Shown: piece after piece, positions 12,465-17,668 of the stretch
How the letters are laid out: the number at the start of each line of letters is the position of its first letter
How positions within the stretch are numbered: position 1 is the first letter of the stretch
Source of the DNA: Planctomycetia bacterium
GTDB lineage: Bacteria > Planctomycetota > Phycisphaerae > Phycisphaerales > SM1A02
Direction: 5' to 3'
DNA: 44,192 bases
NCBI GenBank assembly: GCA_005792145.1
Contig: SXSS01000086.1
Location: forward strand, 1-44,192
Translations under genes and position numbers: made by a program
The notes under the pieces: generated by a model
Seen by the model: the letters and a program-made list of their open reading frames with translations, nothing else
Told to the model about the DNA's origin: nothing
The model's database searches: none

Positions 12465-15400
12465 GTGGCTCCAACCTTTCTCGGTCAACTCGATTTGCGA
12501 ACGCTCGTCTTTGACGGAGCGATGGGCACATCAATTCATGCTTGTGCGGATTGCACGCCGGCGGATTACATCGGCCGCGATAATTGCACGGACATCTTGG
12601 TGCGATCGCGACCAGACATCATTCAGCGCATCCACGAAAGTTTTCTTGCAGCAGGTGCGGATGTTGTGGAGACTGACACCTTCGGAACCAACAAGCTTGT
12701 TGCCGCAGACTTTGACGAAGAGATGGTGAGATGGGTATATGACCTGAATGTTGAAGCGGCGCAGATTGCTCGCGCCGCCTGCGCAAAATATTCCGAACCC
12801 GGTCGACCTCGATTCGTCGCAGGTTCGATGGGACCGGGAACGAAACTCATCACGCTCGGTCAAGCATCATGGACGGTGATGACGGATTCGTATCGAGAAC
12901 AGGCGCGCGGTTTGATTGATGGCGGCGCTGATTGTTTCATGATCGAAACTTGCCAAGATCTCCTGCAAATCAAATGCGCGGTGACCGCGTGTTTGGAAGC
13001 GCTCGAAGCGGCAGGAAAAACGGTTCGCGATATGCCGATTCTTGTTTCTGTGACGATGGAGACCACGGGAACGATGCTCTTGGGTTCCGACATCAGCGCG
13101 GTTGTGAACGCGCTTCGACCATTTCCTATCGCTTCGCTTGGATTGAACTGCGCAACAGGACCGACGGAAATGACGCCGCATCTTGCGCACATTGCCAAGC
13201 ATTGGAATCGCCCATTTTCCGTGGTGCCAAATGCTGGATTGCCGATTTTGGTCGAAGGTCGAACTGAATATCCACTGCGCGCGGAGGACTTTTCGCTTGC
13301 AATGCGCCGCTTTATAGAGGAGTTTGGAGCCAACATTGTTGGAGGTTGCTGCGGAACAACCACCGAACACATCGCCGCGCTTCGCAAGGCGGTTCCTTGG
13401 TCTTCGACGAAGGCAAGCAGAGCAATCGAGTTGCCAGTTCCAGCGTGTTCCAGTCTGTATACCGAAACCGAATTTCGCCAAGACAATTCGTTCTTGATCG
13501 TTGCCGAGCGAACGAATGCAAACGGGTCAAAGAAATTCAAGACACTGCTGGACGCGGAGGATTGGGACGGTCTCGCATCGATGGCCAAGGAAGAACTTCG
13601 CGATGGTTCACATGTCTTGGATGTCTGTGTTGATTTCGTCGGTCGAGATGGCGTGCGAGATATGTCCGAAACGATATCGCGATTTGTGCGGCAAGTGAAT
13701 GCACCGTTGATGATCGATTCGACGCAAGCAGATGTGCTTGAGGCGGGATTGCAGCATGCGCCAGGTCGCTGCATCGTGAATTCGATCAATTTGGAGGATG
13801 GCGAGGAGCGGATGAATCGCATTTGTCCACTCCTGAAAAAGTATGGCGCTGCGTGTGTCGCATTGACGATCGACGAGGATCCGCAAGCAGGTATGGCGAA
13901 GACCGCTGTTCGCAAGTTGGAGATCGCCGAACGCATCCATGATTTGTTCACGCGCAAGTGGGGCTTGGACGAATCCGATCTCTTCTGGGATCCGTTGACA
14001 TTTACAATTGCCACTGGAAACGCAGACGATCGAAAGCTGGGACTGGAGACACTCGAAGGAATTCGGCTTATTTCCCAGCGCTTTCCGCGGTGCTCCATCA
14101 TCCTTGGACTTTCGAATATTTCATTTGGTTTGAAACCAGCGGCTCGGGCGGTGCTCAACAGTGTGTTCTTGCACGAAGCGCGAGCGCGTGGATTGACTGC
14201 GGCAATCGTTCATGTCTCGCGCATTCTGCCAGAGAGCAAGATTCCCCCAGAACATTGGCAGGCCGCGCAGTGGCTGATCTTTGATCGCAGAGGCGCGGAT
14301 CGTCCTGAAGGCCAGCCAGAATCATTTGATCCACTTCTACATTTTATTTCCCTCTTTCCAGATGGCGTGGCATCAGTCAAGGCTGCGCCGATGGAGACTC
14401 TTGGAATCGAGGATCGTCTGCAACGGCACATCATCGATGGAGAAGAAAAGTCTCTCGAAGCTTCGCTTGACGAAGCCCTCAAAACATATTCGCCGCTGGC
14501 GATCATCAATGATTATCTCTTGGCGGGAATGAAGACAGTTGGCGAGTTGTTCGGAGCGGGTCGTATGCAATTACCTTTCGTCTTGCAGAGTGCCTCTGTC
14601 ATGAAGAAAGCAGTCGCATTTCTCCAGCCGCATATGGAGCGCGTTGGCGTTGACGCGAAGCCAAAGGCCACAATCGTGCTTGCAACTGTCGCAGGCGATG
14701 TCCATGACATCGGCAAGAATCTTGTTGACATAATTTTGTCAAATAATGGCTATAAAGTCCACAATATCGGCATCAAGCAGAGCCTCGCGCAAATCTTGGA
14801 TGCATGGCGAACCACTGGCGCAGATGCGATCGGTATGAGCGGATTGCTTGTGAAGAGCGTGACGGTGATGGAAGAAAATCTGCGAGAAATGAATCGTCAA
14901 GAGATTCGCGTGCCAATCATGCTTGGTGGCGCTGCGCTGACGCGACATTATGCAGAGGGCCATCTCCGCAAGGTCTATCAAGGCGAACTGTATTACGGCC
15001 GTGATGCGTTCGAAGGACTTTCGGTGTGCGAAGCGATGGCAACTGGAACACTGCCTTCCATCAACTCAGAGATCGATGCGCGTCTTGCCAAGCGTGCGGC
15101 AGTTGATGCCAAGGTCAAAGCGAACGCGCTGCGCGCAAGCGAGATCACCGCTGTTGGTGTTGCATCGAAGAGCAATGAATTCGATCCAGCGTTTCCTGAT
15201 ACCGCAAACTGCGATGCAGGCGCGACCGTTGGCGGAGTCTTGCTCCATAACAATCCGATTCCAGATCCACCGTTCTGGGGATCGCGTTTGGTGGAACGAC
15301 TCGATCTGGACATGATCTATCCCTTCATCAATCGAACCGCGCTTTTCCGCGGGCAGTGGGGATTTCGTCGTGGAGATTTCGATGATGCCGCATATGCCAA

Positions 15401-16052
15401 ATTCCTCGCCGATGAAGTCGAGCCGATTCTCACACGATTGAAGGGGGAATGTCGTCAAGAAAAAATCCTCCGACCTGCTGTGGTGTGGGGATATTTCCCT
15501 TGCAATTCGTCCGATATGGATCTCATCATCTATGACCCAGTCGATCAAGACCGAGAGATTGAACGATTCTCGTTTCCTCGTCAGAAGGCTGGTCGAAAAA
15601 TCTCGATCAGCGATTTCTTCTTGCCCACGACGAGTGGCAAGCGCGATGTGCTCGCGCTGACTTGTGTGACGATGGGAACAGAAGCAAGCGTTCGAGCAAA
15701 GTCACTCTTTGAGCGCAATCAGTACACGGAATATTTGTACTTGCACGGTATGGGAGTCGAGTGCGCGGAGGCTCTCGCGGAAATGTGGCATAAGCGTGTG
15801 CGTATGGAACTTGGCTTTTCGCACGAAGATGACCCGAAAGTCGAGCGACTCTTTCAACAACATTATCGAGGTAGTCGATATTCATTTGGATATCCCGCAT
15901 GCCCGGATATGGCTGATCAAGAAAAACTGTTCCGTCTGCTCAAGCCAGAAAGAATCGGATGTGTGCTGACCGAGAATTATCAAATTGATCCAGAGCAGTC
16001 GACCAGCGCGATCATTGTGCATCATCCGCAGGCGAAGTATTTTTCGGCGTGA
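12465..16052 (+). CDS. metH: Cobalamin-dependent methionine synthase
   Basis: 1195 aa; Hcy domain DGAMGTSIH...GGCCGTTTEHI; pterin-binding region; B12 motif DVHDIGKN; C-terminal activation domain. GTG start. Confidence 0.97.
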   Translation: MAPTFLGQLDLRTLVFDGAMGTSIHACADCTPADYIGRDNCTDILVRSRPDIIQRIHESFLAAGADVVETDTFGTNKLVAADFDEEMVRWVYDLNVEAAQIARAACAKYSEPGRPRFVAGSMGPGTKLITLGQASWTVMTDSYREQARGLIDGGADCFMIETCQDLLQIKCAVTACLEALEAAGKTVRDMPILVSVTMETTGTMLLGSDISAVVNALRPFPIASLGLNCATGPTEMTPHLAHIAKHWNRPFSVVPNAGLPILVEGRTEYPLRAEDFSLAMRRFIEEFGANIVGGCCGTTTEHIAALRKAVPWSSTKASRAIELPVPACSSLYTETEFRQDNSFLIVAERTNANGSKKFKTLLDAEDWDGLASMAKEELRDGSHVLDVCVDFVGRDGVRDMSETISRFVRQVNAPLMIDSTQADVLEAGLQHAPGRCIVNSINLEDGEERMNRICPLLKKYGAACVALTIDEDPQAGMAKTAVRKLEIAERIHDLFTRKWGLDESDLFWDPLTFTIATGNADDRKLGLETLEGIRLISQRFPRCSIILGLSNISFGLKPAARAVLNSVFLHEARARGLTAAIVHVSRILPESKIPPEHWQAAQWLIFDRRGADRPEGQPESFDPLLHFISLFPDGVASVKAAPMETLGIEDRLQRHIIDGEEKSLEASLDEALKTYSPLAIINDYLLAGMKTVGELFGAGRMQLPFVLQSASVMKKAVAFLQPHMERVGVDAKPKATIVLATVAGDVHDIGKNLVDIILSNNGYKVHNIGIKQSLAQILDAWRTTGADAIGMSGLLVKSVTVMEENLREMNRQEIRVPIMLGGAALTRHYAEGHLRKVYQGELYYGRDAFEGLSVCEAMATGTLPSINSEIDARLAKRAAVDAKVKANALRASEITAVGVASKSNEFDPAFPDTANCDAGATVGGVLLHNNPIPDPPFWGSRLVERLDLDMIYPFINRTALFRGQWGFRRGDFDDAAYAKFLADEVEPILTRLKGECRQEKILRPAVVWGYFPCNSSDMDLIIYDPVDQDREIERFSFPRQKAGRKISISDFFLPTTSGKRDVLALTCVTMGTEASVRAKSLFERNQYTEYLYLHGMGVECAEALAEMWHKRVRMELGFSHEDDPKVERLFQQHYRGSRYSFGYPACPDMADQEKLFRLLKPERIGCVLTENYQIDPEQSTSAIIVHHPQAKYFSA

Positions 16053-16097: not shown

Positions 16098-16973
16098 GTG
16101 CAGAATCACGAGTTGCTATTGATCGGTTCAGTGGGGGGCGGCATTGGAGCGTGGGCTCGTATCGTCATTCGCGACGAATTTGTCTCGAAGGGAATCGCAA
16201 GTTGGAAGATCGTCATGGCAATCAATCTGCTTGGCAGCGCAGTGGCTGGCATCGCACTGCGAATGACTGAAGGATCTTTCGGGTGGGCGTTTTTTTCGCT
16301 TGGATTTCTCGGTGGATTCACAACATTCAGTTCGATGTGCGTTGATATTGTTGTGCAGTGGATTGCCGGTCGGCGTCGTTGGGCGGTCACCGTCGCGATG
16401 GGAACCATGATCGGTGGTCCGCTCATTGCTTGGATTTGTTCTTTCATCACTGCGATGTTCTGGGCTCGCAGTTCAATTTCAACCGCGGCAATCGCTTCAC
16501 TTGCAGGTCGACGAGTCGCTCATCACATTTCTGGATTGGTCGGCATCACAATGGGTGGTTTCATCGGCACTGGCATACGCATCTTTATGCAATTCCTTGC
16601 GCCAGCAATCGGATTTCCAGTCTGGACCGCGACCGCGTTGGTCAATGTGATCGGATCTGGATTTGCAGGATTCGTTTTTCGTTGGCTTTGCTCTTTGGAC
16701 GCAAATGGCGTTGCGCTTCACGATCCCTCGCGCAGATTGACCCTTGAGCGTCTTCTGATTTTTGGTTTCGCCGGGGGATTGACCACAATGAGCACGCTCT
16801 CGATCGAGATTGTCGAAGCGATGCACCACTCGCTGCTGACCGCACTCTTGATTGGCGGCGTGAACCTTGTTGTGGGATTGACACTCACAATTCTTGGATG
16901 GTGGATCGCATATCGCTGTTTTCCGGCGCGAGAATCGATCGGTCAAATTCCAATTTCGAATAAAGTGAAATAG
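16098..16973 (+). CDS. crcB: Two-domain fused CrcB/Fluc-family fluoride channel-like protein
   Basis: Two consecutive CrcB motif sets: GGGIGAWARIV...NLLGS...GFLGGFTTFSSM and GGFIGTGIRIF...NVIGSGFAG...GFAGGLTTMSTLSIE. GTG start. Confidence 0.85.
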   Translation: MQNHELLLIGSVGGGIGAWARIVIRDEFVSKGIASWKIVMAINLLGSAVAGIALRMTEGSFGWAFFSLGFLGGFTTFSSMCVDIVVQWIAGRRRWAVTVAMGTMIGGPLIAWICSFITAMFWARSSISTAAIASLAGRRVAHHISGLVGITMGGFIGTGIRIFMQFLAPAIGFPVWTATALVNVIGSGFAGFVFRWLCSLDANGVALHDPSRRLTLERLLIFGFAGGLTTMSTLSIEIVEAMHHSLLTALLIGGVNLVVGLTLTILGWWIAYRCFPARESIGQIPISNKVK

Positions 16974-16981
16974 GAGAGCCT

Positions 16982-17668
16982 ATGAACATTGAACCCCATT
17001 CATCCGCAAGTCCGCACGCATCGACTGAACTCGCGCCGATGCGAGCAGAAGTCTTGCGAAGTCTCTGGAAACTCCGCCGCGATTCGTATGCACAAGCGCA
17101 TTTATATGAGGACGCTCGAATTCGAGTGCATCGATCACTGACATGGCTTGCGATGTCGGAGTCTCGTTGCGCAAACGAACACGACACGAAGTTGATCGAA
17201 CTCTGGGCATCTGCTGGCGCGCTCTTTGGAAGATGGAGCGCGCTGCTTGGAGCGCCGCTTGCCGAACGAGAAGCAACAGCATCATTCGCGCGCCAAGTGA
17301 TTCAGTGGGATCGCGACAGCATCATGCCAAAGTTGATCGGAACTCTGCGCTTGTCTGCGCCGATGATGTGGAACGATCCATATCTGACGCAAGCTCTTGG
17401 GATGGTCACTGCGAATTCATCGGCGAACCGCAGAACTGAAATTCCCGCGGATGATGCGGGATTTCTCGCTGGGCTCTTGGAGCGAATCGGTTTGACCGTT
17501 CATCAACTGACTTTGGGAGCGGCATCTTATGGCGGCAATCAAAATCGAATTGCAGTCGAGCGTTCGATTGTTGCGCTGGTCGAACTCGTTCCCGCATTCT
17601 TGCATGTCATCACCGAACATGGATATGTCGATGACTGGGGGCCGCTTTGTTCGCCGCCTCGCGAGTGA
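16982..17668 (+). CDS. Hypothetical protein
   Basis: 228-aa ORF closely spaced after the crcB-like gene; no family recognised. Confidence 0.65.
   Translation: MNIEPHSSASPHASTELAPMRAEVLRSLWKLRRDSYAQAHLYEDARIRVHRSLTWLAMSESRCANEHDTKLIELWASAGALFGRWSALLGAPLAEREATASFARQVIQWDRDSIMPKLIGTLRLSAPMMWNDPYLTQALGMVTANSSANRRTEIPADDAGFLAGLLERIGLTVHQLTLGAASYGGNQNRIAVERSIVALVELVPAFLHVITEHGYVDDWGPLCSPPRE

Follow-up and report, generated by a model that had tools for sequence, protein, structure and literature searches.

The window, a 44,192-nucleotide stretch of planctomycete DNA, carries an open reading frame that encodes two CrcB (Fluc) domains in tandem. The gene, its domains and its neighbours are as follows.

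12465..16052, + strand: metH, cobalamin-dependent methionine synthase, directly upstream and not part of the channel; synteny kept in locus L029
16098..16973, + strand: fused crcB-crcB gene, 291 aa, GTG start, stop included; one-frame homologues in 16 other genomes
16128..16436, + strand: half 1, CrcB domain, residues 11-113, PF02537 match
16545..16901, + strand: half 2, CrcB domain, residues 150-268, PF02537 match
16982..17668, + strand: 228-aa ORF without a Pfam family, directly downstream and not part of the channel; kept in L029

The translated ORF contains the two motif sets described in the initial annotation, AINLLGS (N43) and TTFSSM (residues 75-80) in half 1, and LVNVIGS (N183) and TTMSTL (229-234) in half 2; the ORF, its strand, its length and both Phe boxes proved correct. 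When the halves were scanned separately against the Pfam profile PF02537 (curated cut-off 32.9 bits), half 1 scored 53.7 bits (E = 2.8e-14) and half 2 scored 56.4 bits (E = 4.1e-15), which refutes the possibility that one of them is not CrcB. The protein is a two-domain Fluc, both Fluc domains sharing one reading frame. The NCBIfam equivalog TIGR00494, which models one 117-aa domain, gave 73.4 bits for the whole fused protein, below its cut-off of 80.45, and 46.0 and 37.7 bits for halves 1 and 2. This shortfall weakens the claim to an ordinary CrcB equivalog and leaves membership of the CrcB domain family untouched. Relatives with solved structures are Fluc chains, matched via half 1. The pore asparagine of TM2, which the annotation had seen in both halves (N43 and N183), and the arginine of TM1 are each retained in both halves of all 17 fused genus members.

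A genome search detected no second CrcB locus, and the fused gene is the sole CrcB of its genome. The order metH, fused crcB, 228-aa ORF, M42 peptidase is shared with L029. No fluoride riboswitch was found in the window at the gathering threshold, nor in the genus over the cut-off. On another contig of the same genome, G000:C43:4000-4040 (L110) matched the fluoride riboswitch at a sub-threshold 27.1 bits versus 34, probably by chance.

Distribution and origin of the fused gene

Among the 61 genomes searched, the fused protein is present in 17 of the 19 from the genus (g1), the window included, as one frame each; its relatives there share 33-85% identity with the window protein. The remaining two genus genomes (G014, G015) gave no match. 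Judged by its sequence, the fused gene is under purifying selection, with dN/dS of about 0.13-0.23 among the six closest members. Half 1 is likewise under purifying selection, and dN/dS was smaller for half 2 than for half 1 in most comparisons. The survey of fused CrcB in Planctomycetota that the initial annotation had proposed limited fusions to two genera among 392 sampled genomes, the second being g6 (L095, L096). No full-length fusion was found in that sample beyond g1 and g6, and the 18 loci with the top phylum-scan matches, checked for a same-frame second domain, revealed none besides the window and g6. A search for further relatives returned no match in viral contigs or plasmids.

Such an ORF could result from a sequencing or assembly error that fused two overlapping crcB genes, a refutation the initial annotation had itself named. 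Sister genera do carry crcB pairs with a 4-nt overlap, where a single indel would fuse them. However, the same fusion, in one open frame and at 33-85% identity, recurs in another 16 genomes of the genus, the window junction has no RTGA stop/start overlap, and residues 120 to 147 contain no in-frame start codon. We consider an artefact extremely improbable; the fused gene is real, occurs genus-wide and encodes a bacterial Fluc of two domains.

Half 2 is unlikely to be translated on its own from an internal start in the window, where residues 120-147 are without a start codon. Four other loci (L015-L018) have a conserved in-frame ATG just before TM1' of half 2, near the ancestral downstream start and absent from the window; it is possibly a relic or an internal start.

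Across 181 genomes of the family, crcB is found as a single gene, as an adjacent pair or as a fusion. The stop/start overlap was exactly 4 nt (ATGA or GTGA) in 26/26 sister-genus pairs read (L054, L062-L075, L077-L081, L091, L100, L101, L103, L104 and L106), a constancy that is a sign of translational coupling of both heterodimer subunits. Because a 4-nt overlap places the paired genes in different frames, we infer that an indel at the overlap would suffice to fuse them. In a single-domain tree half 1 clusters with the upstream genes of the g18 and g60 pairs and half 2 with the downstream genes; support for these groupings is modest (SH-aLRT 83-84) on a short alignment of 132 columns. The fused gene would have arisen from such an adjacent pair with a 4-nt overlap, through loss of the stop/start boundary, and the g1 and g6 fusions may represent either a single event or two. 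The lone CrcB of genus g59 (L087, L092, L093; tree leaf G183 is L087) branches among the downstream (B) genes, placed as if its upstream partner had been lost, a reading made unsure by its long branch.

Topology and orientation of the two halves

Two features between the halves bear on how the chain crosses the membrane.

16380..16460, + strand: TM4 of half 1, residues 95-121; of all helices it changes fastest (38% mean pairwise identity), and L026 lacks it
16467..16514, + strand: linker RSSISTAAIASLAGRR, residues 124-139, between TM4 and TM1', short and weakly hydrophobic

Four hydrophobic segments are visible in each half of the window protein, in agreement with the 4+4 helices and short linker first counted by eye. 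The linker makes a poor TM helix: the second 19-residue hydrophobicity peak after TM4 has a mean KD of 1.11 in the window, and 0.4-1.45 across 4+4 members. The topology question raised at the outset is accordingly a real one. The g6 fusions possess a strong second segment (KD 2.22 and 1.76), giving 4+1+4 with a true linker helix. In one MAG (G017, L026:1465-2289) half 1 lacks TM4 (SRRRAGNGPADGGGKWAAALPDRRV), leaving 3+4, or seven predicted helices. The accompanying assertion, that antiparallel halves require an additional helix, fits g6, which has one, but was too strict, since the number of crossings is odd in L026 through the absence of TM4 from half 1. In most members the region running from loop 3-4 to TM1' carries an arginine at each end, as would fit a chain that comes back to the cytoplasmic side through a very short crossing or a re-entrant TM4. 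Two solutions are conceivable: a membrane-crossing linker, short as it is, or a half-1 TM4 that is re-entrant or does not span the membrane. An AlphaFold2 model from the window protein and four relatives (five sequences) was too poor for use (pLDDT 41, pTM 0.27).

Orientation was addressed by counting K+R in alternate loops, with TM boundaries placed by hand from the alignment, following published logic for Fluc proteins (PMC3755343; PMC3962082). The bias was +2 to +6 for half 1 and -8 to -3 for half 2 in 17/17 fused genus members. As these proteins are related, this counts as one well-conserved signal and not as 17 independent ones. The g6 fusions have the same signs (+5 and +6 versus -4 and -1). 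Single-gene CrcB proteins have a bias near 0, with 10 of 12 lying within -2 to +1 and the other two at -4 and -8. Of 18 loop K/R in the window protein, an antiparallel arrangement places 16 inside and 2 outside, versus 12 and 6 for a parallel one; the corresponding chance tails are 0.001 and 0.24. The antiparallel arrangement was the better fit in 17/17. The opposite bias predicts an antiparallel single-chain channel, and the halves are probably oppositely oriented.

The two halves could instead share one orientation (4+4, with the linker outside the membrane), two chains then pairing antiparallel to give two Fluc dimers. Such a parallel tandem is the default outcome of an even number of crossings, and four clear hydrophobic segments per half joined by a short, weak linker speak for it. 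It is at odds with the K+R bias, which differs in sign between the halves of 17/17 members and of both g6 fusions, accounts for the window charges only at a ratio frequent by chance, and is impossible for the 3+4 relative. Synthetic parallel La1-La2 fusions moreover had minimal activity, whereas an antiparallel fusion was fully active (PMC3755343). We therefore regard the parallel tandem as unlikely. In the preferred antiparallel arrangement half 1 would insert N-out and half 2 N-in, so that one chain forms the antiparallel dimer built elsewhere in bacteria from two subunits.

The fusion in genus g1 shows how two overlapping genes can become one without an obvious gain of a connecting helix. 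Fluc is a textbook case of inverted-repeat membrane proteins evolving from dual-topology genes. A single planctomycete family contains single genes, overlapping pairs, a fusion with a linker helix, a fusion with a short, weak linker and one minus a helix, so that bacteria allow a direct test of the fusion step.

Asymmetry of the two pores

The pore assignment given here presumes the geometry of Ec2 and FEX. In Ec2 each pore takes F83 from one subunit and F80 from the other (PMC5417652). Three elements of the window protein correspond to positions in Ec2.

16320..16337, + strand: half-1 Phe box TTFSSM; F77 at the Ec2 F80 position, M80 at the Ec2 F83 position
16782..16799, + strand: half-2 Phe box TTMSTL; M231 at the Ec2 F80 position, L234 at the Ec2 F83 position
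16863..16865, + strand: N256 in TM4', at the Ec2 H106 position; Asn in 15/17

The half-2-side pore would consist of F77, L234, T179, N183, E237 and N256, with F in 16/17 genus members, L in 15/17, T in 16/17, N in 17/17, E in 15/17 and N in 15/17, respectively. The other pore would comprise M231 (M/V/L), M80 (M in 15/17), V39 (I/V/L in 15/17), N43 (17/17) and D83 (D in 14/17). On alignment, then, the pore residues are asymmetric, the half-2-side set being conserved and the other drifted, a statement about conservation and not about function. Two Phe per pore, as in Ec2 (F80/F83), occur on neither side; the sites read F/L and M/M, and many natural pairs of the family also lack the F/F arrangement. 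The asymmetry of the Phe boxes had been noted initially as decay. The asymmetry itself holds, but it is not simply a late decay within one protein: in the unfused pair of sister genus g18 one pore is already F/L and the other L/C. With F/L on the retained side of that pair, this composition predates the fusion or is independent of it. The g6 proteins (L095, L096) have Tyr/Leu and Val/Leu-or-Thr at the Phe-box sites.

Mutants of Ec2 indicate how such substitutions might act: F83L, H106N and F83M are each inactive, and F80M is active with 78% of the conductance (PMC5636608). As F83L and H106N each abolish transport, Ec2-type conduction may be lacking even in the better-conserved pore. Should both pores work with altered coordination (M/M and F/L), the channel would be double-barrelled. 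This is compatible with retention of the pore asparagine in both halves (17/17), with purifying selection on half 1 and with the 78% conductance of F80M in Ec2 (PMC5636608). We nevertheless judge it improbable: F83M is inactive in Ec2 (PMC5636608), the half-1 side lacks T37 (I/V/L in 15/17) and E86 (D in 14/17), and TM4 of half 1 is the most rapidly evolving helix (38% identity), absent altogether from L026. Alternatively, both pores may have lost essential residues and the protein, no longer fluoride-conducting, serves another role. There is no intact F/F pore, and L and N stand at sites where each substitution kills Ec2 transport (PMC5636608), yet the protein is the sole CrcB of its genome, is conserved genus-wide with nearly uniform residues in the counterpart of Pore II, and has natural non-F/F precedents such as the M. 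tuberculosis pair (PMC5636608). Loss of conduction is for us a rather doubtful explanation.

Our preferred interpretation, which we consider likely on the strength of the sequence comparisons, is that the gene encodes a single-chain, FEX-like bacterial Fluc, with antiparallel fused halves and one probable working pore, derived from a crcB pair with a 4-nt overlap. The working pore would probably be formed by TM1', TM2' and TM4' of half 2 with T179, N183, E237, N256 and L234, together with F77 of half 1, and would correspond to FEX Pore II. The other pore (N43, M80, D83 and V39, with M231 of half 2) is probably vestigial. As with other Flucs, fluoride exit would be passive and powered by the membrane potential. 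More tentatively, genus g1 may have arrived, independently of eukaryotes, at a single-chain, single-barrelled antiparallel Fluc without a proper linker helix, TM4 of half 1 being degenerate or deleted, and with a working pore of Phe/Leu and Asn, a combination inactive in the Flucs studied. With this protein, the question of which pore outlasts fusion can be put to a second natural example.

Comparison with known Fluc systems

The two-domain single-chain design, described so far for eukaryotes, occurs here in a planctomycete from fresh water and in almost every sequenced relative within its genus. In the literature on single, paired and eukaryotic fused Flucs, which we covered incompletely, we found no description of a natural fused bacterial form; novelty is thus unproven.

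With the homodimeric Flucs Ec2 and Bpe the window protein shares the domain family, the pore asparagine, the conserved arginine of TM1 and the GG(x)TT(x)S box; those channels differ in having a single domain of 120-130 aa, near-zero charge bias and two identical F/F pores. In the heterodimeric crcB1/crcB2 pairs (La1/La2 of L. acidophilus and those of the sister genera) the two subunits are oppositely charge-biased, like the fused halves, and in the nearest sister-genus pairs the subunit order is that of the halves. In contrast, each subunit of these pairs is a polypeptide of its own, and in the 26 pairs read the two genes share 4 nt. The engineered La1-La2 fusions Laf-TM, LapA and LapB also make Fluc one chain (PMC3755343). 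The active Laf-TM contains an inserted glycophorin helix, unlike the window protein, and the natural linker resembles the 14-residue hydrophilic linker of LapA, a construct of minimal activity, in length but not in hydrophobicity (PMC3755343).

FEX, compared through published motifs, likewise has two Fluc domains per chain (yeast Fex1p; PMC5417652, PMC3755343). Half 1 has F at the first and M at the second Phe position in both (SSFSSM in FEX, TTFSSM here), the C-terminal domain preserves T and E of the retained pore while the other pore has drifted, and the retained side (Pore II) has the same polarity (yeast FEX SSFSSM/STISTF; PMC5417652). Three differences stand beside these likenesses: FEX has a linker TM helix, whereas the linker here is short and weakly hydrophobic; domain 2 of FEX has Phe at the second position (STISTF), where the window protein has Leu (TTMSTL); and the Ec2 H106 site is Asn in the window protein.
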